Below are positions 37,232 to 54,253 of a stretch of DNA of 64,000 nucleotides, one piece after another. Location: positions 1,984,001 to 2,048,000 of the forward strand of contig NC_007516.1 of the NCBI RefSeq assembly GCF_000012625.1, read 5' to 3'. Origin of the DNA: Synechococcus sp. CC9605 (GTDB lineage Bacteria > Cyanobacteriota > Cyanobacteriia > PCC-6307 > Cyanobiaceae). The notes under the pieces are model-generated. The model made no database searches. It had not been told where the DNA came from and worked only from the letters and a program-made list of their open reading frames with translations. Position numbers and translations under genes: made by a program. The stretch's first letter is position 1, and the number at the start of each line of letters is the position of its first letter.

Positions 37232-38500
37232 TCAACGGCCGACATTCGACGGCATTGGCAAACCAAGTAAGCGGTACACCGAGACCGCATCCACAACCGG
37301 CTCAAACGGCAGCATGGCGTCGGTCATCGTGTCGGTGACCTTGGTGAAGGTGTTGCGGTCCACCACCACGACGTCGCCATTGCGCAGGGGCGGATTGTTG
37401 GCACTACTGAGGACAGCATTGGGCTCGTAGCGCAACTGCTTCACCGTGGGGCGTCCCTTTCGATCAATGCGGATCAGGTTCACGCGCTTCACACTGCCGC
37501 GTCGGGTGACTCCTCCGGAGGCAAGGATCGCGCTAGATAAAGGTGCATTCGAACCGATTTGGACCACGCCTGGGGCTAAAACCTCACCAACAACTTGCAC
37601 ATTGATTGCCGCCGGGGCGAAGTTCGAAGCAGAAGCTGTCAACAAGTCCAGATTGGTAGCTGTTTTCGCCTTGTGCACTCTGATGCTGTCGCCGTCATAG
37701 ATCAGAGGATTCGGGGCAAAACCTCCCTCCTTCAAAACGGTCAGATAGTCGAAAATGAAGCTCTGAGTTTGACCACCAGGGGCGGGAGAGGGGCGCAGCA
37801 GTTCCAATCGGCCCAGATCACCAGTCGCTGAAAGTCCGCCAGCTTTTTGAATCACATCCACCATGGTCGGCCAGCCGCCGCCATCGCTTCCAACACTTAC
37901 ATCAGAGAGATCGCTCGTCGAACCCAGGGATGCATCACCGTTGACAGGCAAAGTGAAAACACCTGGGCGAGCGACCTCGCCCGTGACCGTGACCCGAACC
38001 GGACGCTGTTTCACAAGGTCCAGGTAGACCAACGGTCGCCGCAGAAATCGGCTGTAACCGTCAGTAATACGTTGACGCGCTTCCTCAAGCGTCAATCCCC
38101 AAACTTCAACCGTTCCCAGTCGCGGCAGGTTGATGGTGCCATCGCTCAACACCTGAACCTCAGCCTCGTAACCATCGATCTTGAACACTGAGGTCACCAG
38201 CTGATCCCCAGGAGCAAGGCGATAGCGGTAACCCCTCGGAGGCAGGCCAGGAGTGGTTGGGAGCGGGGGCGGTGCCTGCAGCGCCAAGGTGGGCTGGGCC
38301 TCCACCTCCCACTCCATTGGGGCGGTCAACTTCGACTTCCGATTGCGCTTGGGCCAGTTCCTTGCAATCGATTCGTTCGTCTTAAGCCAGTTGATCCGCT
38401 CTTCAGCCCGAAGGCCTTCACCAAAAACCCCTGAGATCGAACAAAGAACTGCTGCTGCAACACCTGCGGTGAGACCTGTCTTTGTAAGGGGCATAACCAT
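37232..38500 (-). CDS. Polysaccharide export outer-membrane protein (OPX/Wza-KpsD-like, SLBB domains)
   Basis: The protein has 422 residues with an N-terminal signal sequence (LTAGVAAAVLCSISGVFG) but no clear lipobox. The Poly_export domain is YRLAPGDQLVTSVFKIDGYEAEVQVLSDGTINLPRLG. SLBB beta-grasp repeats follow (VTVTGEVARPGVFTLP and VQVVGEVLAPGVVQIG), with GDSIRVHKA and GDVVVVDRNTFT. OPX proteins form the outer-membrane exit of capsule export machines. It starts the capsule locus and is divergent from the acyltransferase gene. The matching ABC transporter (KpsMT) and PCP (KpsE) are not in the window. Confidence 0.92.
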   Translation of the reverse strand: MVMPLTKTGLTAGVAAAVLCSISGVFGEGLRAEERINWLKTNESIARNWPKRNRKSKLTAPMEWEVEAQPTLALQAPPPLPTTPGLPPRGYRYRLAPGDQLVTSVFKIDGYEAEVQVLSDGTINLPRLGTVEVWGLTLEEARQRITDGYSRFLRRPLVYLDLVKQRPVRVTVTGEVARPGVFTLPVNGDASLGSTSDLSDVSVGSDGGGWPTMVDVIQKAGGLSATGDLGRLELLRPSPAPGGQTQSFIFDYLTVLKEGGFAPNPLIYDGDSIRVHKAKTATNLDLLTASASNFAPAAINVQVVGEVLAPGVVQIGSNAPLSSAILASGGVTRRGSVKRVNLIRIDRKGRPTVKQLRYEPNAVLSSANNPPLRNGDVVVVDRNTFTKVTDTMTDAMLPFEPVVDAVSVYRLLGLPMPSNVGR

Positions 38501-38569
38501 GGGTGGAACTCAGTCAGCAGCCAAATGGACGACAATCTTCCCGCATAATGCGATCCAGGGATATGGACC

Positions 38570-39508
38570 ATGACGCAGACCGGACCATCAGCGCAGAGTG
38601 ACGTCCTGCTTCCTCACGGTTGGCGAGACGCCAATCACACGAGCAGCATGTTGTTCCGCCTCGACGGTCTAGAGCTTCATCTGATCCCCGGAGAAAAATT
38701 TAAAGTCGTCGCAGATGCCGTTGGCACACTGCGGGAATCCACCTACCGCCAACAGCTCTCCGGGTCAGGCAACACCCGGGACCTCGATGGCCGCGACTCG
38801 GCTTATGACCATCTGATCCTGTTGGAGCCCAGCAGCGGAGCCCTCGCCGGGTCCGCCCGGTTGCAATTCGTTCCTCAATTCATGGCCGCCGAGGAGCTCC
38901 CTGGTAGCCAACAGTCCTACCTGGAGCACGTCTATCCCGGCATCAAAGCGACGCTGGCGCAGCAAACACATCACGTGGAGATCGGTCGGGTTGCTCTAGC
39001 CCCACGATTTCAGCGCCAACCGCACTCTCTGATGGCTTTGTTCCGCGGAGGCCTCCTGATCGCAGCCCACTCGGGATTCAGCATCCTGCACGGATTGGTC
39101 TCTTACAACCACTTCGCCCACAGCGATGCCGTCAATGCAGCCTTTCTCAGTGCGTTGATGCGCCCTCCTTATCGCAGAACGAGCCCGGCATTACCGCCAC
39201 CACGACACCCGATCAACGCCATCCAGCCACGTAACACCCCCCACCCGATCAGCAACGTTCAGGCATTAGAGCTGGCTATCCGACAGGACCACAGCGAAGA
39301 CTTCCGTCTTCCTGTGCTGTTGCGCCAGTATTTCAACCTGATGGAAGCCAAGGTCTGCGACCTCTCCTTGGCACGGGATTTCAACCAGATCACGGAAATT
39401 TTGATGGCCGCCGATCTCTCACGCTTGCCGAAGGATCGCCTGGCCTTCTTCATCGACGTTGATCATCAACCCGTCTACCAGCAATTCAGCTGGTACCGAG
39501 GCAAGTGA
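38570..39508 (+). CDS. GNAT-type N-acyltransferase-like protein
   Basis: The protein has 312 residues. The central region resembles acyl-ACP-dependent GNAT N-acyltransferases (OlsB-like/autoinducer-synthase-like fold). It has DHLILLEPSSGALAGSARL for the core beta-strands, VEIGRVALAPRFQR for the acyl-donor-binding strand, and a C-terminal half with YFNLMEAKVCDLSLARDFN. It heads a plus-strand run GNAT - ACP - ketosynthase, so an acyl-ACP substrate from the next genes is likely (inference). It is divergent from the export-protein gene. Confidence 0.65.
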   Translation: MTQTGPSAQSDVLLPHGWRDANHTSSMLFRLDGLELHLIPGEKFKVVADAVGTLRESTYRQQLSGSGNTRDLDGRDSAYDHLILLEPSSGALAGSARLQFVPQFMAAEELPGSQQSYLEHVYPGIKATLAQQTHHVEIGRVALAPRFQRQPHSLMALFRGGLLIAAHSGFSILHGLVSYNHFAHSDAVNAAFLSALMRPPYRRTSPALPPPRHPINAIQPRNTPHPISNVQALELAIRQDHSEDFRLPVLLRQYFNLMEAKVCDLSLARDFNQITEILMAADLSRLPKDRLAFFIDVDHQPVYQQFSWYRGK

Positions 39509-39553
39509 TAAACGAAGCGGCACTGGTACTTTGGCTGGATCAAAAGGTTGGTG

Positions 39554-39838
39554 GTGTTGAGAGAGGGATCTCCCGATAAGCAAGAGCTAGAGGGCCGCCT
39601 CGTCGAGATCCTGCATCGCATTTCCGGCGCCGACCCTGCAGCGATCACCCCGGATGCCCGTCTGATGGAAGACATCGGAATTGATTCCTTGGGGTTTTAC
39701 GAAATCCTGATCGAGGCCGACACCTGTTTCGGTATTCGTATCCAGGAGGAGCAACTCCTGCAATTCAAGACGGTGGGTGATATTCAGAACCATCTGGCAT
39801 CGCTCGATATCGATCCCCCCAACGCCCAAACCGCCTAA
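39554..39838 (+). CDS. Acyl carrier protein, dedicated (second ACP)
   Basis: The protein has about 94 residues. The phosphopantetheine attachment site is S45 in DIGIDSLGFYEIL. It is longer and less acidic than FabI-pathway AcpP and lies outside the fab cluster, so it is probably specific to this locus. Several overlapping start codons exist (TTG 39548, GTG 39551, GTG 39554). The last is favoured because AAAGG lies 6 nt upstream. It ends 2 nt before the ketosynthase start, implying co-translation. Confidence 0.85.
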   Translation: MLREGSPDKQELEGRLVEILHRISGADPAAITPDARLMEDIGIDSLGFYEILIEADTCFGIRIQEEQLLQFKTVGDIQNHLASLDIDPPNAQTA

Positions 39839-39840
39839 CC

Positions 39841-41109
39841 ATGGCAGTACGGCAGCACATCTCCCAGCGGGTCTCGATCGTGGGCTGGGGTTCCGTATCA
39901 CCCCTGGGCTGTGACGCCGAATCAACCTGGGAAAGCGTCCTGGCGGAGCGCTCCGGCATCAGCTCCCTGACGGCAGACTGGAGCAAAGATCTACCGGTAC
40001 GCATTTCTGGATGCGTGCCCGTTGCCGCCACCCAATCCCTTGAGCCTCTGCTGCAACGGCGCTCTGACCGCTGCGCACAACTGGGTTTGCTGGCTGCTCG
40101 AAAGGCCTGGGCCATGGCCTCAGCAGCCATCGGAAGCATTGACCCAGCCCGAGTTGCTGTGGTGCTGGGGACCGGGATCGGCGGACTCCACACCATGCAT
40201 GAACAGCACAATCAGCTGACCCACGGAGGGCCGGCACGGGTCAATCCACTCACCGTGCCAATGCTGATCCCTGATGCGGCTTCTGGCCAAGTAGCCATCG
40301 ACCTAGGCCTTCACGGAGGTGCGCACACCCCAGTCTCGGCCTGCGCGTCGGGAGCTGAGGCAATGATGCTGGCCCAGATGCTGCTCAACGACAAGCGTGC
40401 CGATCTCGTGCTGGCCGGCGGCACCGAAGCACCCGTGAACCGGCTTGGGCTTGTCGGCTTCTCGGCCATGAGGGCTCTCTCCTGCAGAAACGATGCCCCT
40501 GAGCAGGCGTCCCGGCCTTACGGCAAAGACCGTGACGGGTTCGTGCTTTCGGAAGGAGCAGGAGTCCTAGCGATGATGCGAGAGGAAGACACCCCAAGAG
40601 GTTCAGCTCTTGGCTGGCAACTCGCCTGCGGCAGCAGCAGCGACGGCCATCACATCGTGGCACCAGAACCCCAAGGGATCCAGGCGAGTCGAGCCATTGA
40701 AGATGCTCTCAATCGTGCCGGAATTGAACCGCGGGATCTGTGCGCCGTTCAGGCCCACGCCACCGGCACCGTTCTGGGTGACCTCGCTGAAGCACGCTCC
40801 CTCCGAAGGAGTCTCGGACATGCCGCTGACCACCTCCCCGTGTTTGCACCCAAGGGACAACTCGGGCATTTACTGGGAGCAGCAGGAGCGGTTGAGGCAA
40901 TCATTGGGATTCAAGCCCTTCACAAAGGAATACTTCCAAGAACGATCAATTCAGACCCTCTAGATCCAGAAATCAACATCAATGTAACGACAGAAAAGCC
41001 TGTCAAATTAAAAAATACAAGCAAAGAACAATTTATGCTGAAAAATTCATTTGGATTTGGTGGTCACAATATCAGCATTGTTCTTTCCTCGAGCAGTAAA
41101 AATCTATAA
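39841..41109 (+). CDS. Beta-ketoacyl-ACP synthase (FabF/KAS II-like), dedicated
   Basis: The 422-residue thiolase-fold condensing enzyme has the complete Cys-His-His triad: C168 (VSACASGAEAM), H306 (QAHATGTVLGD) and H343 (KGQLGHLLGAAGAVE), plus the C-terminal NSFGFGGHN. It should elongate acyl chains on the adjacent ACP. It is divergent from housekeeping FabF. The last ~45 residues, from about 40,970, are encoded by sharply AT-rich DNA unlike the first 375, marking a recombination boundary inside the gene. Its 3' end overlaps the convergent acyltransferase gene by 38 nt. Confidence 0.88.
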   Translation: MAVRQHISQRVSIVGWGSVSPLGCDAESTWESVLAERSGISSLTADWSKDLPVRISGCVPVAATQSLEPLLQRRSDRCAQLGLLAARKAWAMASAAIGSIDPARVAVVLGTGIGGLHTMHEQHNQLTHGGPARVNPLTVPMLIPDAASGQVAIDLGLHGGAHTPVSACASGAEAMMLAQMLLNDKRADLVLAGGTEAPVNRLGLVGFSAMRALSCRNDAPEQASRPYGKDRDGFVLSEGAGVLAMMREEDTPRGSALGWQLACGSSSDGHHIVAPEPQGIQASRAIEDALNRAGIEPRDLCAVQAHATGTVLGDLAEARSLRRSLGHAADHLPVFAPKGQLGHLLGAAGAVEAIIGIQALHKGILPRTINSDPLDPEININVTTEKPVKLKNTSKEQFMLKNSFGFGGHNISIVLSSSSKNL

Positions 41110-41824
41110 CCGCAGGCTCAAATGACTTCTTTGGCAGACTGACTGGTATGGAATCTAAATCTTCCTCATAGAGCGAGCACGTTATCTCTGCCTCTGGAGC
41201 CATCAAGCGCTTCACCAAAATCGCAAAAGGACTGTAAAGATCATTTCTCGAAAGGCCAATATCTCCATATCTAAACACCCAAGGCGCAATACGTGTTGAA
41301 AATTTTCTTGCGAGAACTTGTGGGCTTCTTGAGGCACGCTGATAAATCGATGTCACAAGCGAGCCATTCGGGGCAATAATCATTTGCCCGTGCGTTGACA
41401 TGACGTCGAAAGACTTCAAAACAGATGCTCGCCTAGACTCCGAATCCATATGATCAAGAAGAATATGACCAGCGTTGCTGGCACAACGGTCAAAAAAAGG
41501 CAATATTTTTCCAAGATGCGAACTTGCTGTCGTGATACTAGGAATCCTCAAATAGCCCTGAATAATGAAGACATCCAAGGGGTTTTCATGATTATAGATA
41601 TGAACATATCCTCTCGCTGGTACCGACCAATCAAAATTGGACTTGACAACAACATTTACACCCAAAGATTTTAATAGTTGACGTGAAAAAACTGATGACA
41701 ACAGGGAAGCAGATTTTTTGTAGCCCAGCACCAGCAACGGGAGCTGAGCCAAATAAGCAAGATACGCACTAAGAAGCAAAAAAAGACGTGCAAACAACCT
41801 ACTAAAGACAGTGATTAGTCTCAT
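41072..41824 (-). CDS. PlsC-like acyltransferase, AT-rich
   Basis: The protein has 250 residues. An N-terminal membrane segment (LFLLLSAYLAYLAQLPLLVLGY) is followed by a glycerol-phosphate acyltransferase-like domain. The HX4D motif is present as H79-ENPL-D84, and a variant of the second motif appears as PNGSLV. It resembles lysophosphatidate acyltransferases that add an acyl group to lysolipids. Base composition is far more AT-rich than the neighbouring GC-rich genes. The following gene (minus strand, upstream) carries a related but degenerate domain at its C terminus, so the two are paralogs. Confidence 0.72.
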   Translation of the reverse strand: MRLITVFSRLFARLFLLLSAYLAYLAQLPLLVLGYKKSASLLSSVFSRQLLKSLGVNVVVKSNFDWSVPARGYVHIYNHENPLDVFIIQGYLRIPSITTASSHLGKILPFFDRCASNAGHILLDHMDSESRRASVLKSFDVMSTHGQMIIAPNGSLVTSIYQRASRSPQVLARKFSTRIAPWVFRYGDIGLSRNDLYSPFAILVKRLMAPEAEITCSLYEEDLDSIPVSLPKKSFEPAVIDFYCSRKEQC

Positions 41825-41855
41825 ACAATCGATAAAATTGACACTTTAATCGACA

Positions 41856-43808
41856 TCAACTAAAAAACATCGACTCAACTTTCATCACAAATTCTTCGGC
41901 ATTCATACCTGAAGGACAGTTGATAGCAGACGAACGAGCTCGTCTAGCCCTGACAAGCAAGACCGGCGAAGCGAGACGAGAACAAAAAAGTCTCAAGAAT
42001 TTATCCACAGTGTTAATATTAAAATCAACGCTGTTTTCATAAACAAAAATCCAAGGAACGATCAACAAATTGCATGAACGACAAACGGACCAAAAACTCT
42101 TCACAAGCTCTCGATTATTCGCAGCAAAGGGAATGCAAATTTGCCTACCCCCGACACACAGATCAGTATAAGAATTTATATTCTCATTACTTTCGTCAAT
42201 CGACAGATCAACACCAGAACATCTCTCGAAACGCAAATTTCCTGAATCTGCAAACAAAGTGTTTAGCCCAAAAGAACCCCGAGCAACGAGCAAATCAAAC
42301 CAGCTGGATTGATCATAAACTTGAATAATGTTGAATCCAACACGCTCACAAACCTGACTGTCATCAACAATCACCTGGACGCCAAGGGATCGCAACAGGA
42401 ACGCTGACAGAATTGAAAATAATTTGTCAGCAGAATCACGCCATTTCATCCACACACATACATTCATCAGCGCGAACAAAGCCAGAGCCAAGGTGAGACA
42501 GAAAAGTCGGCAGAAAATTCTCCCTAACAACTGCAAGGCATTAACTGAATTTTCAGGAATTAAGACCGGCAGGCGTGGGCTGGGGGGGAGCTGACGGGCC
42601 TCCGGACCGATTGGGAAGGTGGTGCGGAAGGGGAAGTCCCCATCGAAATTGCCATTCACCTGGGTGGTGAGCACCAGATGGTTATAGAAGCGATAGAACA
42701 GGGCTCGATTGCTAGGCTGAGGATCACACCAAAAGCCGTCGAGAGGTTTCTGATCCGTCAATCCCTCCAGGTTGTAGAAGGTGTGCCCCATCGTCTTGGT
42801 GGGCACCGCATGGAACAGGGCTTGCAGCCCCACGGTGCTATTCACCGTGATCACCCCACGGCAAGTGCGCAGATAGCGGCTGAGGGGGCCATCGTGGAAG
42901 TAGTGCACCCGGCCTGTGACGCCGTATTGCTTAGCAAGCAGACGGATTAAAGAGGCGTAGTTGTTGTAGCCCCGATCCCGGGGATGGTGCTTGAAGGCCA
43001 GGTGGTCGGAGGCGTGCGCATGGCCGGCAAAGGATCGAATCACGTCTTCGATGAAGTCGTGCATGCCCCGGTAAGGCGACCCCATCTGAATCTGGGAATC
43101 ACTGGAGACCTGCAGAACAGCCAGGAAGAACGAGCAGTGTTCAAGCAACCGCTGCTTCACCGATTGTTCCTGCCAGCGGTAAAGCCAGTAGCGCCAGCTT
43201 CCACGCACTTGACACCAGAGAAACCTGGGCGAGGGCTGAAGTTTGTGCTCACCCTCGATGATCGGGTAGCGGGTGAAGGCGTGCTGAATGAACGTCGGGG
43301 CCTTCCAGGCTTTGCGCCAGCGCCAACCGGGATCAAGAACGATGTTCTGGGGCAGCTGGTCGCAGGGGGGCAGCTCCCGATAAAAAATCGCTGGCTTGTT
43401 GAGATTGGAGCGGGCATTGACCCGATCCCGCTCGAGAGTCACATAGTTGGGGCGCAGATAACCCAGCTCAAACACCCAGGCCTCAACCCCAAGGTTGCGT
43501 GCTTCTTCAATGGCGATTCGATGGGGAATGATGAAATCGCCATACATAAAAATGTGGCGAATGCCCCGTTCCTCAATCAGCCGACGCAGGAAGGGACGCC
43601 AGCTGTCCATCCCCTTGCTGTAAGACACACAAACATCGGCCGGGAAGCCGAATTCCCTCAGGGGGAACGCCACCTTGGTCACCGGGATGCCACAGCCCTG
43701 CAGGTAGCGGCAGAAACGAGCAAAGAACAGACCGATGGGGCCCATCAACAGCAGCACAGGCCCGTCGATTCGCACCTGTACGAGAGCTGGCGCCCGTCCC
43801 CTGCCCAA
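41856..43808 (-). CDS. kpsS: KpsS-like capsule Kdo transferase fused to a degenerate acyltransferase domain
   Basis: The protein has up to 650 residues. Residues ~15-415 are a capsule synthesis (KpsS-type) domain: VLLLMGPIGLFFARFCRYL, IFMYGDFIIPHR, FKHHPRDRG (272-280) and VNSTVGLQALFHAVPTKTMG. In E. coli KpsS adds the first Kdo to a phosphatidylglycerol anchor. Residues ~420-650, encoded by AT-rich DNA, contain a membrane segment and a region matching the adjacent PlsC-like protein (FLLRSLGVQVIV versus QLLKSLGVNVVV). Its HX4D position reads Q500-SSWF-D505, so the catalytic His is lost. The TTG start at 43808 is weak; GTG at 43775 is an alternative. Confidence 0.82.
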   Translation of the reverse strand: MGRGRAPALVQVRIDGPVLLLMGPIGLFFARFCRYLQGCGIPVTKVAFPLREFGFPADVCVSYSKGMDSWRPFLRRLIEERGIRHIFMYGDFIIPHRIAIEEARNLGVEAWVFELGYLRPNYVTLERDRVNARSNLNKPAIFYRELPPCDQLPQNIVLDPGWRWRKAWKAPTFIQHAFTRYPIIEGEHKLQPSPRFLWCQVRGSWRYWLYRWQEQSVKQRLLEHCSFFLAVLQVSSDSQIQMGSPYRGMHDFIEDVIRSFAGHAHASDHLAFKHHPRDRGYNNYASLIRLLAKQYGVTGRVHYFHDGPLSRYLRTCRGVITVNSTVGLQALFHAVPTKTMGHTFYNLEGLTDQKPLDGFWCDPQPSNRALFYRFYNHLVLTTQVNGNFDGDFPFRTTFPIGPEARQLPPSPRLPVLIPENSVNALQLLGRIFCRLFCLTLALALFALMNVCVWMKWRDSADKLFSILSAFLLRSLGVQVIVDDSQVCERVGFNIIQVYDQSSWFDLLVARGSFGLNTLFADSGNLRFERCSGVDLSIDESNENINSYTDLCVGGRQICIPFAANNRELVKSFWSVCRSCNLLIVPWIFVYENSVDFNINTVDKFLRLFCSRLASPVLLVRARRARSSAINCPSGMNAEEFVMKVESMFFS

Positions 43809-43848
43809 ACTGCAACCCGCCCATCAATGGACAAAATCCTGACACGGC

Positions 43849-45846: not shown

Positions 45847-45878
45847 CGGGTAAGACAGGTCGCACTGAATCCTCACCG

Positions 45879-46559
45879 ATGGCAGTCCCCCGTGGCGCGC
45901 TGGCCCTGATCCCCGCCCGTGGTGGATCCAAAGGAATTCCAGGCAAAAACCTTCTAACGGTGGGAGGGGTGCCCCTTGTCTGCCGCAGCATCCGTGCAGC
46001 CCTCGCCAGCAACGGCGTGGGGCGGGTGGTGGTGAGCACGGACGACGAAGCCATTGCAGCCGCAGCCGAAACCGAAGGGGCCGAGGTCATCCGGAGGCCG
46101 GCGGAGATCGCCGGCGACACCGCCAGTTCTGAATCGGCGCTGTTGCATGCCCTGGATGTTCTGGAAAAGCAGGGCCCTCTCGAAACCGAGCTGGTGTTCC
46201 TGCAATGCACATCCCCCTTCACGACAGGAGCCCAGATCGATGCCGTGCTGGCCGCACTCCATGGAAGGGGCAGCAACAGCAGCTTCTCTGTCACGCCTTG
46301 GCATGGCTTCCTCTGGCGGGCCGATGGGCGAGGCATCAACCACGACCCTGCGTTGCTCCGCCAACGTCGGCAGGACCTCGAACCAGCTTTTCTGGAAACC
46401 GGCGCGATCTACGCCATGGCCATCACGGCCTTCCGGCGCTGTGGCAGCCGCTTCTGCCCACCAACAAGCCCAGTGGTGCTGCAGGAGGTGGGACCAGAAA
46501 TTGACACGCCCGAGGATCTGGCCCTCTGCCGCAGCATCGCGGCCCAGAAAGGCGAGTAA
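45879..46559 (+). CDS. neuA: CMP-N-acetylneuraminate/nonulosonate cytidylyltransferase
   Basis: The protein has 226 residues. The N-terminal CTP-binding motif IPARGGSKGIPGKN is the NeuA type rather than the KdsB type, so the activated sugar is more likely a nonulosonic acid (neuraminic, legionaminic or pseudaminic) than Kdo. FLQCTSPFTTGAQID and IDTPEDLALC are also conserved. It ends 2 nt before the next gene, heading a plus-strand operon of sugar-acid synthesis and transfer genes. The exact sugar cannot be determined. Confidence 0.92.
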   Translation: MAVPRGALALIPARGGSKGIPGKNLLTVGGVPLVCRSIRAALASNGVGRVVVSTDDEAIAAAAETEGAEVIRRPAEIAGDTASSESALLHALDVLEKQGPLETELVFLQCTSPFTTGAQIDAVLAALHGRGSNSSFSVTPWHGFLWRADGRGINHDPALLRQRRQDLEPAFLETGAIYAMAITAFRRCGSRFCPPTSPVVLQEVGPEIDTPEDLALCRSIAAQKGE

Positions 46560-46561
46560 TT

Positions 46562-47893
46562 TTGCCCAGCAAGGTTTCGGAGTCGATGGCGCCCGCAGAA
46601 TCCAAGCGCCTCGTTGGCCGCAAGATTGCGGCCGTCGCCTGCTTCGACTCCTTCGGCAAGCTGGCGATGACCATGCTGGCGTCCTGCCGGCGGGAGGGTG
46701 CCGATGTCACCTTGCTGCTGCTGGAGCTGAACAACCGGGCCCTCTCCAGGCGGCAACGCCTCGAAATTCGGCGGATCGACCCGAAAATCCGCATCGAAAA
46801 ACACAGCTGGAACGACCTGCGTCAGCTCTGCGGCGCCATGCCGGGGAATGTCGACGCTCTGATCCTGGGCCTGGATGGCCAACGCAGCCGCGATGCGCTG
46901 CTGCAACTGAAAAACATCTGGGTGGATCAGGACCAACGCCCACGCCTGATTGGCGCTTACCCAGGAATCCTGTTCCGCTTCGGCCTCGAGGGAATGATGG
47001 ATCGTTCAGGCGCTGACCTGCTCTGTCTCAACAGTGCAGACGATTTGGCCCTTTACGGCCGTGGCCGCAAGGCCCTGGGCCTTGATAGCAGCAATGCCGT
47101 GGTCACTGGACTGCCGATTCTCTGGCAAACGAAGCCGCGTTCTGAAACACCGGACACCCCCTCGATCGTGTTTTTTGAACAGCCTTCGATTCCGGTGCAC
47201 CCACTGCAGCGCAGGTTCCTCTGTGATCAGATCAAGGAGCTTGCCGAAGCCTGGCCCGATCACCCCGTGATCTTCAAACCCCGAACGTCGAGCATCGAGA
47301 GCACCCTGCATCGACGCCACGGGGAGATGGCCAGCGTGATCGACAAGATGACGCGCGATCAGCCAAATCTGAAACTCAGTTTCAAGCCCGCCACTCGACT
47401 TCTGCGCCAGTGCGGCTGCGCCATCACCGTCTCTTCCACAGCTGCCATGGAATCCATGGCGATGGGAATCAGCACCCGCATTGTCGGTGATCTGGGGGTG
47501 ACCGAAACCCTCGGCAACCATTTTTTCGCCAGTTCGGGCGCCATCGCCAGTTTCGCTGCGATCAAAGCAAACCCCTTCGAGCTTATCCACGACGTTCATT
47601 GGCTCGAACAGCAGGGCTTGCAGCGCGACGGTGAGGATCGCTTCATCACGGCTCTGGTTGACAAGCTGACCAGACCGGCAGCCCCCCTCGGCGTGCTCAA
47701 TCATGGCCCTCTGAGCTGGGGCAGCAGTGCCTGGCAGAAGGCTGCGTTGAAGAACGGAGGCCGGCGGATGCTGAGCAGTGGTGGTGCCCGCTCCAGCCAG
47801 CGCAAACGTCACCGCACCCGTCGCATTGTGCGCAGCCTGCGTGACGGTGTGGTGGGATTCGGTTGGCTCTCCAAGCTGTTGCGGGAACGATGA
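46562..47893 (+). CDS. Putative glycosyltransferase (DUF6716-like), copy 1
   Basis: The protein has 443 residues and no transmembrane segment. It appears to belong to a family of uncharacterised glycosyltransferases found next to neuA/neuB genes. Shared features with the next two genes include an N-terminal strand near VACFDSFGKLAMTML, ALILGLDGQRSRDAL, GADLLCLNS, VIFKPR, and a C-terminal VSSTAAMESMAMGISTRIVGDLG. The layout resembles GT-B polysialyltransferase-like proteins that use CMP-sugars; the donor is inferred from the adjacent neuA and neuB. The basic C-terminal tail (SSQRKRHRTRR) may bind membrane. Its stop overlaps the next start. Confidence 0.7.
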   Translation: MPSKVSESMAPAESKRLVGRKIAAVACFDSFGKLAMTMLASCRREGADVTLLLLELNNRALSRRQRLEIRRIDPKIRIEKHSWNDLRQLCGAMPGNVDALILGLDGQRSRDALLQLKNIWVDQDQRPRLIGAYPGILFRFGLEGMMDRSGADLLCLNSADDLALYGRGRKALGLDSSNAVVTGLPILWQTKPRSETPDTPSIVFFEQPSIPVHPLQRRFLCDQIKELAEAWPDHPVIFKPRTSSIESTLHRRHGEMASVIDKMTRDQPNLKLSFKPATRLLRQCGCAITVSSTAAMESMAMGISTRIVGDLGVTETLGNHFFASSGAIASFAAIKANPFELIHDVHWLEQQGLQRDGEDRFITALVDKLTRPAAPLGVLNHGPLSWGSSAWQKAALKNGGRRMLSSGGARSSQRKRHRTRRIVRSLRDGVVGFGWLSKLLRER

Positions 47894-48918
47894 CGTTCCT
47901 GCTGATCAGCGATGGAGTGCTGGAGCATTCCGCCTGCTGGCTGATGGCGGAAGCGCTGGAGCAACAGGGGCTGCGCTGCATCACGGCAGGGCCTCCGCTG
48001 CAGGGACACCAACCTCTGACCACACCCGCACCTCAGCTGAGCATCGACCTGGCTCAGCTGCCCGCTCACCCTTTGTTGGAGCAGGTCACAGCCATCGGCC
48101 TCTTCCTGCAGAACCCGGACGAGATCCCACGCTTCATCAAGACCTATCAAAACCTCTGCAGGGCAGTCGGACGGATGCCAGCGGCGTTGTTCAGCGGCCC
48201 CCTCGTGCCTTTGGTGGGGGATGCCCTGATTCAGGATCTCAGCCTGCGCCTGGGGTGTGATCTTCTGCTGGTGAGCGGCGAGCACCAACGCCGACAACTC
48301 CGATCGCTCACCTTCAACTGGCCCATAAGCCTTCGTGTTCCCCCTGTGATCTGCACAGGCTTCTGGTTCCCTCAGGACGCACCATGTGCCCCAACCCAGA
48401 AGCCCCTGCTGTTGGCCTTGATCCAGGAGCGGATCCCCACCCATCTGGGAGCCCATGAGCATTTGCTTCGCCAACTCAACAGCTGGGCGCGGCAACGGCC
48501 GAACTGGACCGTGATGGTGCAACACGACCACAGCTGGAGCGCAACGACAACGCTGATGGCCAGCGATGAACCCTTGGCCGACAACCTGTTGGAAGCGGCC
48601 CCTGGCCAACTTCTGCCACTGCTGGGGTCCTGCACCGCCTGCCTCACGGTGAGCTCGCCATGGAGCCTGGCGGCGATGGCCTGGGGCCGGATCCCGATCA
48701 TCGTGGGCGACTACGGCATCCACGATGAACAGAACACAACTGGGTTCTTCGGCTGCGGTGCCATGCATCGCCTTCGAAGCATCCCCCACCTCGATGCCGT
48801 CAGGGAGCTGCCAATGGCGAACCAAGCCTGGCTCGATGGCAATGGCGCCGACATCACCGACGGGCCGCAGCGTCTGGCCAGGGCCCTGAGCGACCTGGCG
48901 CTCCGCGAGGAACCATGA
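47890..48918 (+). CDS. Putative glycosyltransferase (DUF6716-like), copy 2
   Basis: The protein has 342 residues from ATG at 47890, overlapping the previous stop (ATGA). It is the shortest of three tandem paralogs. Shared segments are FLLISDGVLEHSACWLMAEAL, AIGLFLQNPDEIPRF, GCDLLLVSGEHQRRQL, VMVQHDHSW and VSSPWSLAAMAWGRIPIIVGDYG. It is probably a glycosyltransferase of the capsule locus. Tight coupling to both neighbours suggests the three act on the same polymer. Confidence 0.68.
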   Translation: MTFLLISDGVLEHSACWLMAEALEQQGLRCITAGPPLQGHQPLTTPAPQLSIDLAQLPAHPLLEQVTAIGLFLQNPDEIPRFIKTYQNLCRAVGRMPAALFSGPLVPLVGDALIQDLSLRLGCDLLLVSGEHQRRQLRSLTFNWPISLRVPPVICTGFWFPQDAPCAPTQKPLLLALIQERIPTHLGAHEHLLRQLNSWARQRPNWTVMVQHDHSWSATTTLMASDEPLADNLLEAAPGQLLPLLGSCTACLTVSSPWSLAAMAWGRIPIIVGDYGIHDEQNTTGFFGCGAMHRLRSIPHLDAVRELPMANQAWLDGNGADITDGPQRLARALSDLALREEP

Positions 48919-50234
48919 CAGCAACTGCGAGCCAGCCCACGCTCCATGTGCTGCTGATCGCGGACAGCGACAGCCAGCTGCTGGCCTGTGAGGCCCTTTG
49001 CAGTGCTCCGACCGCGCTGAACGTTCATTGGACTTTCAGTGTGATTCCACGGGACGGAACACCCCAGGCTTTGTTGAAACGCCTGGCCGAGCGAGGAACT
49101 CTGCGCCACCAAAGCCTGGCTCGGTTGCTGAGGGATCGGCGGCTGCAGCACTTTGATGCCATCGGCGTTTTCCTGACGGGCAGCAAGATCAACGACATCC
49201 GTCTCGCCCTGCAACGGAATCGCCAGCGCCCCTTGCTGTTCTGTGGGTTCAACGGTGTGGTGCTCGACCACTTCATCGAAGGGGTGAGCTGGCGAATGGG
49301 TTACGACCTGATATGCCTCAGCGGCCCGCGCGATCGGGACGCCCTGGAGCAACTGGTAACCGGAACCCCGTTTGCACAGCAGCGCACCGTGCTGACCGGC
49401 CTGCGGCGCAACGCCCCTTGCACAGACTGCACTCCCTTAGCGGAACGCCCGCGGCGACTGGTGTTTGCCGAACAGGTGATCATGCCCGCGACCAGCAGCG
49501 AACGGGCCCAACTCGTGCGCCTGCTGAGCGATCTGGCCCGACGTTCTCCCAACTGGGACGTGGTGATCAAACCCCGGATCGCCCCCGGCGATGCCACGTT
49601 TCATGATGTCGAGACCCACATCAGCACCACCCTGCAGCAGACCCTGGGGGTGCCTCCCACCAATCTGCGACTGGACTACCGACCACTGCCAGTGCTGTTG
49701 AAGCAGGCCCGGCTGCTGGCCACTCTCTCCTCAACCGCTTTTTTCGACGCCCTCGACTTCGGCTGCCGGGCGATTGCCATCAGTGATTTGGGCCTGCAGC
49801 CGAACTATGGAGGCCACGTTTATGCCGGCAGCGGTGTGTGGCGCTCCCTGGAGGCCATCCCCAACCTGGATGCCCTTGATGCCGAGGGGCCATCCCCGGA
49901 TCCGCGCTGGCTGGAATGGATGGGCTATGGCCAGCAGTTCAGTCCCTCCGCGCTTCTGGAGGCCCTGAACGAACAAAAACACCGGACACCGGAGCCCCCG
50001 CCCAGCCGCATTGGATACCCGGGCAATGCCCAGTCCAGCTTCAACCAGTTGCGCTTGGGAGCCGAAGCCGCCATCGCGAGTGGAGATTGGACCAGTGCTC
50101 GGGAGCTGCTCTGGCAAGCAACCATGATGCGACCGCTGCACCGCGGCGTTGCCCGCCGCCATTGGGCCGTCCGCCAAGCCAATCCGCTGATACGACAGAT
50201 CTCACTGCTGATGTCGTACAGAGATCTGAAGTAA
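48915..50234 (+). CDS. Putative glycosyltransferase (DUF6716-like), copy 3
   Basis: The protein has 439 residues, with its ATG overlapping the previous stop by 4 nt. Paralog segments are LHVLLIADSDSQLLACEAL, AIGVFLTGSKINDIRLAL, GYDLICLSGPRDRDAL, VVIKPR and LSSTAFFDALDFGCRAIAISDLG. A ~60-residue C-terminal addition (ASGDWTSARELLWQATMMRPLHRGVARR) looks like a short TPR-like helical hairpin. It is separated from the neuB fusion by 39 nt. Confidence 0.7.
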   Translation: MTATASQPTLHVLLIADSDSQLLACEALCSAPTALNVHWTFSVIPRDGTPQALLKRLAERGTLRHQSLARLLRDRRLQHFDAIGVFLTGSKINDIRLALQRNRQRPLLFCGFNGVVLDHFIEGVSWRMGYDLICLSGPRDRDALEQLVTGTPFAQQRTVLTGLRRNAPCTDCTPLAERPRRLVFAEQVIMPATSSERAQLVRLLSDLARRSPNWDVVIKPRIAPGDATFHDVETHISTTLQQTLGVPPTNLRLDYRPLPVLLKQARLLATLSSTAFFDALDFGCRAIAISDLGLQPNYGGHVYAGSGVWRSLEAIPNLDALDAEGPSPDPRWLEWMGYGQQFSPSALLEALNEQKHRTPEPPPSRIGYPGNAQSSFNQLRLGAEAAIASGDWTSARELLWQATMMRPLHRGVARRHWAVRQANPLIRQISLLMSYRDLK

Positions 50235-50273
50235 GTTGAATAACGGACTCAACCCAGGCGGCCGAACAGAACG

Positions 50274-52559
50274 GTGAGAGGCATCCTGATTGAGCGAAAT
50301 TTCACCCAGTTCGTTGTCTTCGCGGAAGACAGCATCCTCTCGGCACTCAGCAAGATCACGGCGAACCAGTCCCGCCTGATTTTTGTTGTCTCGGAAAGTG
50401 GCATTCTCCAGGGCGTTCTCACCGATGGTGACTTCCGACGCTGGATTGCCGGATGCGGCGAGATTGATCTGAACCGGCCGGTCACTGCGGCCATGAACGC
50501 CAACTGCCGGTCGGCCGTCGAAGGCACCAGCGCCAGTGATCTGAGTGCCCTGCTCAATTCCCGCATCATTGCGCTGCCGCTGCTGGACAGCCATGGCCGC
50601 ATCGTCGCCGTGGCCCGACGCGCCACCGACGGGCTCCAGATCGGTTCCCACCGCATCGGCGATGACGCCCCCTGCTTTCTGATCGCCGAGATCGGCAACA
50701 ACCACAACGGCGATCTCGACACCGCTCTTCAACTGATCGATGCCGCCCACGCCGCAGGGGCGGACTGCGCCAAGTTCCAGATGCGGGACATGAGCCGGCT
50801 GTATCGCAATTCAGGCGATAGCAACGACATGGCCTCCGATCTGGGCACCCAGTACACCCTGGATCTGCTCGAGCGCTTCCAACTCAGTGACGATGAGCTG
50901 TTCCGCTGCTTTGACCATGCCGCCAGCAAAGGCTTGGTACCTCTCTGCACCCCTTGGGATGAAACGAGCCTCGAGAAGCTCAACCGCTGGGGGATGGAAG
51001 GCTTCAAGGTGGCGTCGGCGGATTTCACCAACCACGCTTTTCTCTCCAGCCTGGCGGAGACCGGCAAACCCCTGATCTGCTCAACCGGCATGGCTTCGGA
51101 AGTGGAGATCCGCTCCGGCATCCGCCACCTCCAAAACGAGGGAGCCGGTTACGTGCTGCTGCACTGCAATTCCACGTATCCCACCCCCTTCAAGGACGTC
51201 AATCTGCGCTACCTCGAGCGGCTGCGCGACCTGGCCGAGGCTCCCGTGGGCTATTCCGGCCATGAACGGGGCATTGAAGTGCCGATTGCCGCCGCCGCCC
51301 TCGGCGCCGTGGTGATCGAGAAACACATCACCCTCGATCGCTCTATGGAAGGCAACGACCACAAGGTGAGCCTCCTGCCCAATGAATTCGCCCAGATGAT
51401 CCACGGCATTCGCCGGGTGGAAGAGTCGATGGGCAGCAGCGGCGAGCGCAGCATCAGCCAGGGCGAAATGATGAACCGCGAAGTGCTGGCCAAGAGTCTC
51501 GTCGCCAGATGCGACGTGCCTGCCGGCACGGAGATCACCGAGGCGATGGTGGGCATCCAGAGCCCGGGGCAAGGCCTGCAGCCCAACCGTCTTGCCGACC
51601 TCATTGGCAAGACGCTGCCGGTGAGCAAAGCCGCCGGCGATTTTTTCTTTCCCTCAGACCTTGAAACCCCGGCCGCTACGCCGCGCGCCTACCGATTCCA
51701 ACACCGCTTTGGCCTACCGGTTCGTTATCACGACATCGAGAGCTTTGCTGCCAGCAGCAATCTCGACCTTGTTGAAATCCATCTCAGCTACAAGGATCTC
51801 GAGATCAACCTCGATGAAGTGCTGCCGACAAAGCAGCCGATAGGCCTGGTGGTGCATGCCCCCGAATTGTTTGCTGGGGATCACACCCTCGACCTCTGCA
51901 GCGCTGATGGCGACTACCGCCGCCATTCGATTGCAGAACTCCAGCGCGTGGTCGACATCTCTCGTGACCTGCGAAATCGTTTCGACTGCCCCGATCCCGT
52001 TCTACTGGTGACCAACGTCGGGGGATTCTCAGAGCACCACCATCTCGAGCGCGCGGACTTGCAATCGCTACGGCAACGCCTGATCGAGAGCCTTCAGCAG
52101 ATCAACACCTCTGACGAGGTGGAAATCATTCCCCAAACCATGCCCCCCTTCCCCTGGCACTTCGGGGGGCAGAGATATCACAACCTCTTCGTCGACACCG
52201 ACTTCATCGAGGAATTCTGCAAGGGAACCGGCATGCGCGTCTGCCTGGATGCCTCCCACTCCAAGCTCGCCTGCACCCACCTCAATGCCTCCTTCAGTGG
52301 CTTCCTCAGGGCGATCCTTCCGTTCACAGCCCACCTGCATCTGGCTGACGCCAAGGACGTGGATGGTGAAGGGCTGCAGATCCACGACGGTGAGATCGAC
52401 TGGGTGCAGCTGTTTGCCCTGATGGGTCAACTGGCCCCCGAAGCAAGCTTCATCCCCGAAATCTGGCAAGGCCATAAGAACAACGGGGAAGGCGCCTGGC
52501 TCGCCCTTGAGCGCCTTGAAGGCTGTGTTGATTTGAGCCAGCAGCGGCATGTCGCGTGA
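50274..52559 (+). CDS. neuB: NeuB-type nonulosonate synthase fused to N-terminal CBS and C-terminal TIM-barrel domains
   Basis: This 761-residue multidomain protein condenses PEP with an N-acylhexosamine to make a nonulosonic acid. CBS-like pair: about residues 1-120 (VVSESGILQGVLTDGDFRRW, LPLLDSHGRIVAV). NeuB barrel: about 133-385, with IAEIGNNHNGDLD, KFQM, KVASADFTN and GYSGHERGI, then EKHITLD. SAF domain: about 405-460 (LAKSLVARCDVPAGTEIT). Residues ~475-761 form a second barrel resembling sugar-phosphate isomerase/AP endonuclease-2 proteins, with acidic and His residues such as CLDASHSKLA, HLHLADAKDVDGEG and FIPEIWQGH. Such a barrel may modify or epimerise the substrate; this is inference. 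The start codon is GTG or ATG near 50274. Confidence 0.88.
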   Translation: MRGILIERNFTQFVVFAEDSILSALSKITANQSRLIFVVSESGILQGVLTDGDFRRWIAGCGEIDLNRPVTAAMNANCRSAVEGTSASDLSALLNSRIIALPLLDSHGRIVAVARRATDGLQIGSHRIGDDAPCFLIAEIGNNHNGDLDTALQLIDAAHAAGADCAKFQMRDMSRLYRNSGDSNDMASDLGTQYTLDLLERFQLSDDELFRCFDHAASKGLVPLCTPWDETSLEKLNRWGMEGFKVASADFTNHAFLSSLAETGKPLICSTGMASEVEIRSGIRHLQNEGAGYVLLHCNSTYPTPFKDVNLRYLERLRDLAEAPVGYSGHERGIEVPIAAAALGAVVIEKHITLDRSMEGNDHKVSLLPNEFAQMIHGIRRVEESMGSSGERSISQGEMMNREVLAKSLVARCDVPAGTEITEAMVGIQSPGQGLQPNRLADLIGKTLPVSKAAGDFFFPSDLETPAATPRAYRFQHRFGLPVRYHDIESFAASSNLDLVEIHLSYKDLEINLDEVLPTKQPIGLVVHAPELFAGDHTLDLCSADGDYRRHSIAELQRVVDISRDLRNRFDCPDPVLLVTNVGGFSEHHHLERADLQSLRQRLIESLQQINTSDEVEIIPQTMPPFPWHFGGQRYHNLFVDTDFIEEFCKGTGMRVCLDASHSKLACTHLNASFSGFLRAILPFTAHLHLADAKDVDGEGLQIHDGEIDWVQLFALMGQLAPEASFIPEIWQGHKNNGEGAWLALERLEGCVDLSQQRHVA

Positions 52560-53473
52560 GTCAGCTTCAACCCAAGCGAATCGTTCTGCATTGCGGGCTG
52601 CACAAAACGGGCAGCACCTACGTCCAGCGCAACCTCAAAAGAAACCAAGACCTGCTGTTGAAACAGGGAGTGCTTTATCTCGGGCCGAACACCTTCAAAA
52701 AGCGTTGCCCAAAGTTATGGAGGCATCTGCAATGGGGGCGCTTGGATCGCAGAACGTCCTCAGCTCTTCAAGCAGAAACCAGAACCAATCTTCTGGAGCT
52801 GGCGGGAGACAAGCCGGAATCCATCCACACCATCTTTCTCTCCTTCGAGGCAATTTTTGGCACATTGCGCAGCGGCCTGACCGATGAAGGGCGCAACAAA
52901 GTTCCGAACAAAGAACACAAGCCTGGTTTGTATCGGTACGCCAAAGCTCGCACCAAACGCCTGATGACCGGTCTGGAAGACAGCCTGGGGCTGCGATCAA
53001 TCGCATGGACGGTGCTGTTTGCTAACAGAAATCCAGAAGCCTTTATCCGCTCCTGCCATACCCAGCTGATCAAAGAAGGGCACCACACGCCTGAGACCAG
53101 TCACTTCGACACGTTCCGACAAACGGCTGATTTCTCCCACAGCGATCCCCAACAACTCGAGCAGAGCCTCTCCAAACTCCGCAGCAAACGCGACCTAACC
53201 GTCGTCACCCTCAACTATGACCAAGCCAGCAATCCCCAGGAGCCGAGCATCTTTCTCTGGAATCTGCTGAAGTGGGCCCTGCCCAACCAAGCCGATCTGC
53301 TCAAGCAGCAACTGGAGGCCAGCACAGAGAATAACAAGCTGAGCAAAACCCCCAATCCGGGATTAAGCGAAAGGGGCCTTGAACTGGCGGTGCAGGCGCG
53401 CCCCCTGTTCAGCCGGAGCGAATGGAAACTATTTCGCAAATTCCTCGAAAAAAATTTCTGCAAGAGCTCTTAA
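52556..53473 (+). CDS. Sulfotransferase-like protein 1
   Basis: The protein has 305 residues. The GTG start overlaps the NeuB-fusion stop (GTGA). The N-terminal P-loop-like motif HCGLHKTGSTYVQRNL matches the 5'-phosphosulfate-binding loop of PAPS-dependent sulfotransferases. VLFANRNPEAFIRSCHTQLIKEG may supply the 3'-phosphate-binding Arg and Ser. It probably sulfates a sugar of the capsule. It is co-transcribed with a second, unrelated-looking sulfotransferase. Confidence 0.75.
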   Translation: MSQLQPKRIVLHCGLHKTGSTYVQRNLKRNQDLLLKQGVLYLGPNTFKKRCPKLWRHLQWGRLDRRTSSALQAETRTNLLELAGDKPESIHTIFLSFEAIFGTLRSGLTDEGRNKVPNKEHKPGLYRYAKARTKRLMTGLEDSLGLRSIAWTVLFANRNPEAFIRSCHTQLIKEGHHTPETSHFDTFRQTADFSHSDPQQLEQSLSKLRSKRDLTVVTLNYDQASNPQEPSIFLWNLLKWALPNQADLLKQQLEASTENNKLSKTPNPGLSERGLELAVQARPLFSRSEWKLFRKFLEKNFCKSS

Positions 53474-53476
53474 TCG

Positions 53477-54253
53477 ATGGCCCAACCACATCACTTCATC
53501 CGGATGAAGCACTACAACCTGCTCTATGGGCGGGTTCCCAAAGCGGCGAATTCCTCGATCAAAGCGGCCCTTTGCCGTCTGCTCAGTGAAATGCCCCCCA
53601 AAGGGACAAAAACCACCTCTGACAAGTTCTGGCAGCAAGAAACAAATCATGAGACGGAGCTGATCACGCTTCGCCGTGCCCGCAAGTACAGGCGCAGCCA
53701 TTTCAGCTTCAGCTTCGTACGCAACCCCTTCGACAGGCTGATCGCGGCTTACAACAACAAAGTGATCGAAAACGAGGAACCACCCCAGCCGATGCAGAAC
53801 ATGGGCGTCACCCACGGAATGTCGTTCGAGGATTTTCTTGACGTCTTAATTGAGACGCCTTACAAGCAATATGACGTTCACATCTTGCCTCAGAGCCAAT
53901 TGCTTTGCATTGGCAATCAAATCGTGCCGAAGTTTGTTGGACGCGTGGAACAGATCAACGAACATTGGGCTGAACTACGCGACATCCTGGCCCGACAAGG
54001 TGTCGAGGTGATGGAGTCGTTACCACAGAAGAATGTCCGACGCAGTGATCGCGGCGGCCTGCAGGATTACTTCAACAGCGATGCACTCATCGAAAAAACA
54101 TTGCGGATTTATGGAGACGATACGCGCCTGTTCTACAACGATGTTTCTGTGGATCACCTGATTCAGAACAAGCCCCTACCGGCAATCAACACGCTGCACA
54201 GCAAAGGCTTGAAGCTGTCCAACTGGCTCCGAGAGCTTGGCTTCGGACGTTGA
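53477..54253 (+). CDS. Sulfotransferase family 2-like protein (carbohydrate sulfotransferase)
   Basis: The protein has 258 residues. The 5'-PSB loop is YGRVPKAANSSIKAAL and the 3'-PB motif is FSFVRNPFDRLIAAYNN, which match Golgi-type carbohydrate sulfotransferases of the Sulfotransfer_2 family. KFVGRVEQINEHW is a typical later segment. It starts 3 nt after the first sulfotransferase. Its stop abuts the convergent SDR gene with no spacer. The substrate is probably the polysaccharide of this locus. Confidence 0.82.
   Translation: MAQPHHFIRMKHYNLLYGRVPKAANSSIKAALCRLLSEMPPKGTKTTSDKFWQQETNHETELITLRRARKYRRSHFSFSFVRNPFDRLIAAYNNKVIENEEPPQPMQNMGVTHGMSFEDFLDVLIETPYKQYDVHILPQSQLLCIGNQIVPKFVGRVEQINEHWAELRDILARQGVEVMESLPQKNVRRSDRGGLQDYFNSDALIEKTLRIYGDDTRLFYNDVSVDHLIQNKPLPAINTLHSKGLKLSNWLRELGFGR

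Follow-up and report, generated by a model that had tools for sequence, protein, structure and literature searches.

What does a picocyanobacterial capsule hang on? The question is raised by a 64,000-nucleotide stretch of the Synechococcus sp. CC9605 chromosome (contig NC_007516.1 of assembly GCF_000012625.1, positions 1,984,001 to 2,048,000; hereafter the window), in which capsule genes and acyl-lipid genes lie side by side between window positions 37,232 and 54,253. A first-pass annotation proposed that a GNAT-type acyltransferase, an acyl carrier protein (ACP) and a ketosynthase form a lipid-making trio serving KpsS and KpsC, the transferases of 3-deoxy-D-manno-octulosonic acid (Kdo), and that a sulfated, nonulosonate-containing capsule is built on the product. 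An open reading frame (ORF) check found every claimed ORF in place. Gene families were assigned by Pfam and NCBIfam profile searches of the window ORFs, and these searches support the naming of the outer-membrane polysaccharide export (OPX) protein, GNAT, ACP, ketosynthase, PlsC-like protein, KpsS, KpsC, NeuA, three DUF6716 proteins and a NeuB fusion. Our reading, which we consider fairly likely, is that the locus descends from an ATP-binding cassette (ABC)-type (group 2-like) capsule pathway, produces a Kdo-linked surface glycan and itself supplies the lipid anchor for it. The anchor is probably a dedicated one, of the amino-lipid type.

The argument turns on the companionship of two genes. 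One encodes the GNAT N-acyltransferase (38570..39508, plus strand; PF13444 7e-11, above cut-off), which is AHL (acyl-homoserine lactone) synthase/FeeM/OlsB-like; the other encodes KpsS (41856..43808, minus strand; PF05159 1e-55), the first Kdo transferase. Two samples were searched, an order draw of 200 genomes and a phylum draw of 292. A KpsS carrier is a genome with a Capsule_synth match of E < 1e-50 (full-type KpsS), which excludes 10 further order-draw genomes with weak or partial PF05159 matches only. GNAT relatives occur in 34 of the 200 order-draw genomes, and full-type KpsS occurs in exactly those 34; the probability of sharing the same 34 by chance is 1/C(200,34), about 3e-39, an idealised figure, the genomes being related. 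In the phylum draw, all 8 KpsS carriers have a strong GNAT match. The two genes are convergent neighbours in 34/34 loci. They are directly adjacent in six (gap -20 to 560 bp); in the remaining loci the ACP and ketosynthase genes lie between them (gap 1.4 to 2.4 kb), joined in four by a separate PlsC gene. KpsS is on the contig in 33 of the 36 named GNAT loci, the other three contigs stopping too early. Pairwise divergences of GNAT and KpsS are correlated (r = 0.93, with 0/2000 permutations as high), a figure that kinship inflates. Four same-genus genomes lack GNAT, KpsS, KpsE and kdsA, all together.

Named relatives retrieved by the GNAT profile belong to Synechococcus, Cyanobium, Vulcanococcus and cyanobacterial metagenome-assembled genomes, plus one contig labelled Bifidobacterium. 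The last, CALPNT020000098.1, filed under Bifidobacterium breve (L106), carries a cyanobacterial GNAT-KpsS locus and is probably misbinned. The first-pass annotation had named wide occurrence of the trio away from kps genes as the observation that would tell against it. Such occurrence was looked for, and strong GNAT matches always came with KpsS (34/34 and 8/8). Exclusivity is qualified by distant matches: eight more phylum-draw genomes have GNAT-profile matches (E 1e-5 to 1e-8) and no KpsS, and four plasmid records hold relatives 23–26% identical to a divergent GNAT. We treat these as other acyltransferases. A search of 87 stretches of viral contigs gave no GNAT relative.

KpsS itself carries the next clue. 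The window protein has 650 aa, of which about 395 are followed by a C-terminal PlsC-like domain that the first-pass annotation had missed. Among the 34 loci, the KpsS ORF is at least 627 aa long in 33, and the fused PlsC-type domain has an intact HX4D motif (NHX4D) in 29; KpsS and PlsC share one ORF in 30 of the 33 named loci having KpsS. Three loci (the window, L037 and L041) have a fused domain that has lost the HX4D motif, followed by a separate intact PlsC gene. In L043, fused and separate copies are both intact; L066 has a degenerate PlsC domain only; and the KpsS of L069 is an unfused protein of 410 aa. The window's separate gene (41072..41824, minus strand; PF01553 2e-7, intact NHX4D) encodes a stand-alone O-acyltransferase homologous to the KpsS-fused domain by motif alignment, and is best read as a duplicate that would have replaced the fused domain's role. 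PlsC membership is indicated by the PF01553 score (31.2 bits, above the cut-off of 23), by the PlsC fold and by the NHX4D motif. The second PlsC signature motif is EGTR; its place is taken here by P[NS]GS. An AlphaFold model of PlsC (pLDDT 94) superimposes on Thermotoga maritima PlsC (5kym) with Z 16.1 and a root-mean-square deviation of 3.9 over 224 residues. A PDB sequence search with KpsS gave nothing useful. In Synechococcus sp. AG-679-D13 (L080), the KpsS ORF reaches 1354 aa as an apparent KpsC-KpsS-PlsC fusion, which could be a single-cell assembly error.

The two Kdo transferases are recognisable by sequence. PF05159 scores above cut-off in both KpsS and KpsC (43849..45876, minus strand; a dual Kdo transferase matching the profile in four stretches), and the two halves of KpsC match solved KpsC structures (6mgd, 1e-68; 6mgc, 4e-63). 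KpsS matches the equivalog model NF050054 at 3e-84, yet below cut-off. A proteobacterial control turned up no place covering 80% of the window's fused protein among 101 plasmid records with KpsS relatives. The GNAT and KpsS-PlsC profiles had no match within 10 kb in 10 proteobacterial KpsS loci (two of them unannotated), a small, plasmid-biased sample picked from 102 records.

Is the proposed trio then the core of the module? The ACP-ketosynthase pair is present in 28 of the 34 loci and absent from L062–L065, L068 and L069. We therefore reject ACP-ketosynthase-GNAT as the defining unit; the pair is an optional add-on. What survives of the earlier proposal is a lipid-synthesis module dedicated to KpsS and KpsC, its constant part being GNAT, KpsS (mostly PlsC-fused) and KpsC. 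In the window, the ACP (39548..39838, plus strand; PF00550 7.8e-11) is a second acyl carrier protein with a GIDSLG motif; gene and DSL motif are as annotated, and the serine, given as S45, takes number 47 when the TTG start codon is residue 1. The ketosynthase (39841..41109, plus strand; PF00109/PF02801) is a FabF-like paralogue, 38% identical to the genome's other FabF-like protein. Alignment to FabF 1j3n bears out the annotated Cys-His-His set, which we take to be the catalytic residues.

Three genomes of the order draw suggest that a second lipid route exists in the same context. G164, G106 and G186 (loci L070–L072), which are among the 10 with weak or partial PF05159 matches, are without GNAT and full-type KpsS and have a KpsC-like protein with an ACP and a ketosynthase. 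The G164 ketosynthase is 48% identical to the window's, as against 39% for G164's other FabF-like protein. The three loci also encode a BioF/serine-palmitoyltransferase-like enzyme and a short-chain dehydrogenase/reductase (SDR), assigned by Pfam/NCBIfam on L070 and by like ORFs in L071 and L072, as well as a glycosyltransferase-like protein; L071 includes the start of an OPX gene. A further 385-aa protein of this module has no Pfam or NCBIfam match in its L070 copy, and its PDB sequence matches are none better than E 0.38. The module looks like a sphingoid-type alternative. No 8-amino-7-oxononanoate synthase- or serine-palmitoyltransferase-like enzyme was found beside KpsS among the window locus genes by Pfam/NCBIfam. 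On another contig, about 5 kb from kdsA, each of the three genomes has a second partial Capsule_synth match (G164:C15:26929, G106:C28:41951, G186:C15:42257), which could be the missing Kdo transferase.

The L070–L072 module resembles alphaproteobacterial loci beside KpsS relatives. In Sinorhizobium meliloti (L131), the KpsS relative stands by a 7.5-kb SDR-annotated ORF, a protein of the pyridoxal phosphate (PLP)-dependent aminotransferase family and an SDR. The corresponding neighbours are a type I polyketide synthase, a PLP-dependent enzyme and an SDR in Shinella; a PLP-dependent enzyme, an SDR and a sterol desaturase in Acidisoma; and an SDR and a sterol desaturase in Novosphingobium. We take the L131 genes to be those named RkpA, RkpG and RkpH.

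The GNAT was compared by fold and by sequence. In an AF2 model (pLDDT 90.7), the top VIA matches are the AHL synthases BjaI (Z 13.9), LasI, TofI and RpaI (13.6) and the N-acyl amino acid synthase FeeM (13.2). The best NCBIfam match is OlsF (NF052615, over OlsF residues 304–565, 8e-18), at 64 bits against a cut-off of 620; the NCBIfam listing has no OlsB model. The FeeM profile PF21926 gives 16 bits against a gathering score of 27 (E 0.01), and a PDB sequence search with the GNAT profile gave nothing useful. We propose that the window GNAT may N-acylate the head group of the anchor.

Kdo supply and an exporter are also expected of a capsule pathway. kdsA scores above cut-off in 34/34 GNAT/KpsS carriers, as against 64 of the 166 other genomes (Fisher p 8e-13). 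The window genome has two copies about 44 kb apart (G000:C1 135700–136473 and 180522–181295), and in L069 kdsA, a kdsB-kdsC fusion and an SIS-CBS (kdsD-like) gene lie beside GNAT-KpsS-KpsC. The OPX gene (37232..38500, minus strand; Poly_export PF02563 1.4e-17, SLBB PF10531 7.8e-19) is near GNAT/KpsS in 31 of 33 relatives (E 1e-10). The first-pass annotation saw no kpsM, kpsT or kpsE and held that the transporter must be elsewhere. Indeed, capsule-exporter queries have no match within the window, and kpsE, kpsM and a kpsT-like ORF lie at about 1.858–1.861 Mb, some 125 kb before the window start at 1.984 Mb; absence of a kps transporter from the genome is thus rejected. The location was rightly guessed; the ATPase of the transporter turned out to be degenerate. 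KpsE (TIGR01010 2e-47) and KpsM (NF050053 5e-17) both score below NCBIfam cut-offs, and a PF02706 (Wzz) search of the genome had no match even with KpsE present by TIGR01010, a limit of that model. KpsE occurs in 37 of the 200 genomes, namely the 34 GNAT/KpsS carriers and the three palmitoyltransferase-type genomes. In six of the nine carriers outside the NeuA/NeuB branch (L061, L062, L063, L065, L066, L068), kpsM-kpsT-kpsE adjoin KpsC/KpsS/GNAT.

The window-genome KpsT (G000:C1 about 1,860,208–1,860,993; L139:7209–7994) has no Pfam match at E 0.01 and is without the Walker A motif, Walker B Asp, catalytic Glu and H-loop His. In an alignment of 34 KpsT proteins, 23 are without all of these and 11 keep all; within the degenerate group, a lysine occupies the Walker A column of L179, and L188 and L194 keep the SGM signature. 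In G025 and G035 (L183, L184), there is no KpsT ORF between the DUF1997-position gene and kpsM. The 37 KpsE carriers thus comprise 11 with intact KpsT, 23 with degenerate KpsT, 2 with KpsT missing at the locus, and G102, whose KpsE is on a 6.4-kb contig. A search of the 37 with intact KpsT found KpsT-grade matches (E below 1e-76) in 11, weaker ABC matches only in G054, G078, G090 and G159 (31–41% identity, ORFs of 426–502 aa), and no match at E 1e-25 in the others, the window genome included. The 25 genomes with degenerate or missing KpsT show no KpsT-grade match elsewhere; degenerate KpsT elsewhere in G025 and G035 was not searched for. A small DUF1997-like protein, possibly a new capsule accessory, lies beside kpsM with either intact or degenerate KpsT (L139:8052–8600, L062:8413–8961); the L062 copy has a Pfam match, the L139 copy is recognised by BLAST likeness, and similar-size ORFs stand there in L183 and L184.

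A recent pseudogene is rejected, because the ORF is open in 23 genomes and the ratio of nonsynonymous to synonymous rates (dN/dS) shows purifying selection. dN/dS is 0.195 in the closest pair and 0.13–0.28 in the 4 of 11 pairs with dS < 1.3; three more pairs give 0.09–0.12 with saturated dS (>2), and four were not computable. Purifying selection also acts on KpsM, which is better conserved than KpsT in 11/11 pairs. On its motifs, the KpsT of this branch appears to be a conserved pseudo-ATPase, catalytically dead. In a 36-row KpsE tree, KpsT degeneration falls on one branch (100/99) and the missing-kpsT pair on a different one, the long branches of intact rows being flagged. The degenerate or missing state marks the same 25 genomes that have NeuA, NeuB and three DUF6716 genes beside KpsC. 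In the other nine GNAT/KpsS carriers, the 13–20 kb examined hold no NeuA/NeuB/DUF6716. KpsT loss and NeuA/NeuB may go back to a common ancestor; we therefore treat their correlation as a single event.

In the window, the glycan genes of that branch (25 of 34 loci, window included) lie on the plus strand, at higher positions than KpsC. They encode a PseF/NeuA-like CMP-nonulosonate synthetase (45879..46559; PF02348 1e-20; TIGR03584 3e-37, below cut-off; frame checked), three DUF6716 putative glycosyltransferases (46562..47893, PF20471 6e-56; 47863..48918, PF20471 9e-15; 48915..50234, PF20471 2e-50 and Capsule_synth 2e-4) and a CBS-NeuB-SAF-TIM-barrel nonulosonate synthase fusion (50274..52559; PF03102 7e-79, PF08666, PF00571, PF01261 [AP_endonuc_2]). 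In the fusion, the CBS domain is N-terminal and the TIM barrel, which is xylose-isomerase-like, C-terminal; the protein is matched in 24 relatives, mostly across 738–762 of its 761 residues. Two sulfotransferases had been annotated beyond it. The one at 53477..54253 (plus strand) belongs to Sulfotransfer_2 (PF03567 1e-38); the putative protein at 52556..53473 (plus strand) has no Pfam match, owes its sulfotransferase label to the first-pass annotation, and has relatives in 7 of 36 fetched loci (E 1e-10). One or other sulfotransferase-like gene is present in 18 of the 24 relatives with NeuA/NeuB; the other six stretches end at NeuB. A sulfated nonulosonate glycan is a reasonable but unproven guess for the NeuA/NeuB branch and does not extend to the other loci. 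Beyond these genes, FIIHYSL-type repeats follow one another in the translation of window ORF 57159–57584, which suggests that the DNA is tandemly repeated there.

Taken together, the genes suggest the following route. Where present, the ACP and ketosynthase of the locus would supply a special acyl chain. The GNAT would N-acylate an amino-acid-like head group from acyl-ACP; serine, or another head group with a free hydroxyl, is a possibility. The PlsC-type domain, fused to KpsS in most relatives, would add a second acyl chain. KpsS would attach the first Kdo to the resulting lipid, and KpsC would extend the Kdo linker, on which the branch-specific NeuA/NeuB/DUF6716 (and sulfotransferase) genes may build the glycan. 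KpsM-KpsE and the OPX protein would then export it. We infer the lipid chemistry, the covalent joining of lipid and capsule, the glycan structure and the energy source of export. The fullest version, in which a Kdo-linked nonulosonate glycan sits on a phosphorus-free N-acyl amino lipid made by GNAT and the KpsS-fused acyltransferase, while in one large branch KpsM-KpsE, with a conserved but dead KpsT or none at the locus, carry out its export, driven by a borrowed ATPase or a non-ATP force, is offered as a tentative proposal, possible and well short of probable.

Several observations weigh against a self-made anchor of this kind. The GNAT fold matches are formally tied, because other GNATs score close behind (NatC 12.9 vs. 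FeeM 13.2); in Foldseek, the first places go to the CurA loading domain and a GNAT toxin, with EsaI and FeeM behind them; and the GNAT scores far under the OlsF, GlsB and FeeM cut-offs. KpsS, KpsM and KpsE, too, fall below their NCBIfam cut-offs. Intact PlsC is missing from 2 of the 34 loci (L066, L069) and ACP-ketosynthase from six, so these loci cannot all follow one and the same route. The GNAT-KpsS linkage could reflect one inherited block, and the lipid could be separate from the capsule. In a rival reading, the product of the acyl genes would be a membrane aminolipid of an ordinary, ornithine-lipid-like kind, or else an N-acyl amino acid acting as a free signal; the genes would simply be co-inherited with the capsule block, KpsS and KpsC still using lyso-phosphatidylglycerol. 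The AHL synthase/FeeM-like model, the OlsF match, the distant relatives outside a capsule setting in eight phylum-draw genomes and four plasmid records, and the fact that OlsB/OlsF enzymes make membrane lipids (PMC12493201) would all fit. Against this, draws of 200 and 292 genomes gave no strong GNAT match without KpsS, most loci have an O-acyltransferase fused to KpsS itself, and the four same-genus genomes are without GNAT, KpsS, KpsE and kdsA together; we consider it rather unlikely. Less probable still is that the acyltransferases remodel a phosphatidylglycerol anchor from the lyso to the diacyl form, the GNAT acylating a sugar amine, for example on the nonulosonate. The PlsC fold is in its favour, as are the mono- and diacyl phosphatidylglycerol termini of E. 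coli K5 (PMC7694667) and the PlsC-family VexE, which acylates a UDP-sugar for the Vi anchor (PMC9597891). However, 9 of 33 relatives have the GNAT without NeuA/NeuB in the fetched stretch, so that the nonulosonate is not its constant partner, and the top VIA fold matches are long-chain N-acyl transferases to amino-acid-like acceptors.

Our preferred reading, a Kdo-linked glycan on a self-made anchor, meets its other difficulty at the exporter: classical export by it is doubtful because the window-genome KpsT, with the four ATPase features lost, would be catalytically dead. In an engineered system, a single Walker B substitution in KpsT abolished secretion (PMC11041684). The degenerate-KpsT branch might then make no high-molecular-weight capsule at all, KpsM-KpsE being a relic or re-used and a short glycolipid leaving by another route, a scheme compatible with the lipid anchor. 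That the KpsT state coincides with NeuA/NeuB/DUF6716 in the same 25 genomes agrees with this, yet KpsM, KpsE, OPX and even the degenerate KpsT keep open reading frames, with KpsT and KpsM under purifying selection, and a foreign ABC ATPase could serve in trans, the window genome having 35 ABC-type matches (a figure that includes fragments of a single protein and the degenerate KpsT itself). We regard a short glycolipid as unlikely, though a contender for this branch.

How does the locus compare with systems already described? It shares KpsS, a dual-domain KpsC, OPX and Kdo supply with the group 2/ABC-dependent capsules of E. coli K1/K5 and Neisseria meningitidis, and probably also KpsE and KpsM, whose matches lie below the NCBIfam cut-offs. 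It differs from them in a mostly PlsC-fused KpsS, a dedicated GNAT (with ACP-ketosynthase), a KpsT without ATPase motifs and other glycan genes. Sinorhizobium rkp-1 is likewise a capsule locus with its own lipid-synthesis genes beside a KpsS relative (L131), but without an OlsB-type GNAT. The Vi system also devotes an enzyme of the lysophosphatidyl-acyltransferase family, VexE, to its capsule anchor (PMC9597891); however, Vi is without KpsS/KpsC (PMC12220298), and VexE acylates UDP-GlcNAc. Ornithine-lipid synthesis by OlsBA/OlsF pairs an N- with an O-acyltransferase, fused to each other in OlsF (PMC12493201), whereas here the O-acyltransferase is fused to KpsS and the GNAT is far below the OlsF cut-off; the available portion of that paper's listing of OlsBA/OlsF carriers does not name cyanobacteria. 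FeeM and AHL synthases share the GNAT fold (Z 13.2–13.9), but the FeeM Pfam score is 16 vs. a cut-off of 27.

The capsule cluster is already in print: the marine Synechococcus kps clusters Syn-eCAG_008/009, called most similar to E. coli group 2/3 kps (PMC10119275), are probably the same loci. The word "acyl" is absent from the main text of that paper, and its available passages carry no remark on a KpsS fusion or the state of KpsT. An earlier phylum survey noted an unusual KpsS/KpsC distribution (PMC4594306). A literature search, with most subscription papers and preprints outside its coverage, found no description of the acyl module, of KpsS fused to PlsC or of a degenerate KpsT.

Published work gives phosphatidylglycerol-Kdo as the glycolipid terminus (PMC12220298, PMC7694667), and a 2025 review has KpsS/KpsC capsules start on this conserved terminus (PMC12220298). 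If our reading is true, the GNAT-tied KpsS-acyltransferase fusion breaks that rule in Synechococcus and Cyanobium. If, in addition, the lipid is phosphorus-free, it would fit the published finding that capsule genes are enriched where waters are poor in N and P (PMC10119275). The two module types, GNAT-type in 34 genomes and serine-palmitoyltransferase-type in three, suggest that anchors may swap as units. Finally, a capsule ABC exporter kept by selection with a dead ATPase subunit raises the question of what drives polysaccharide export.

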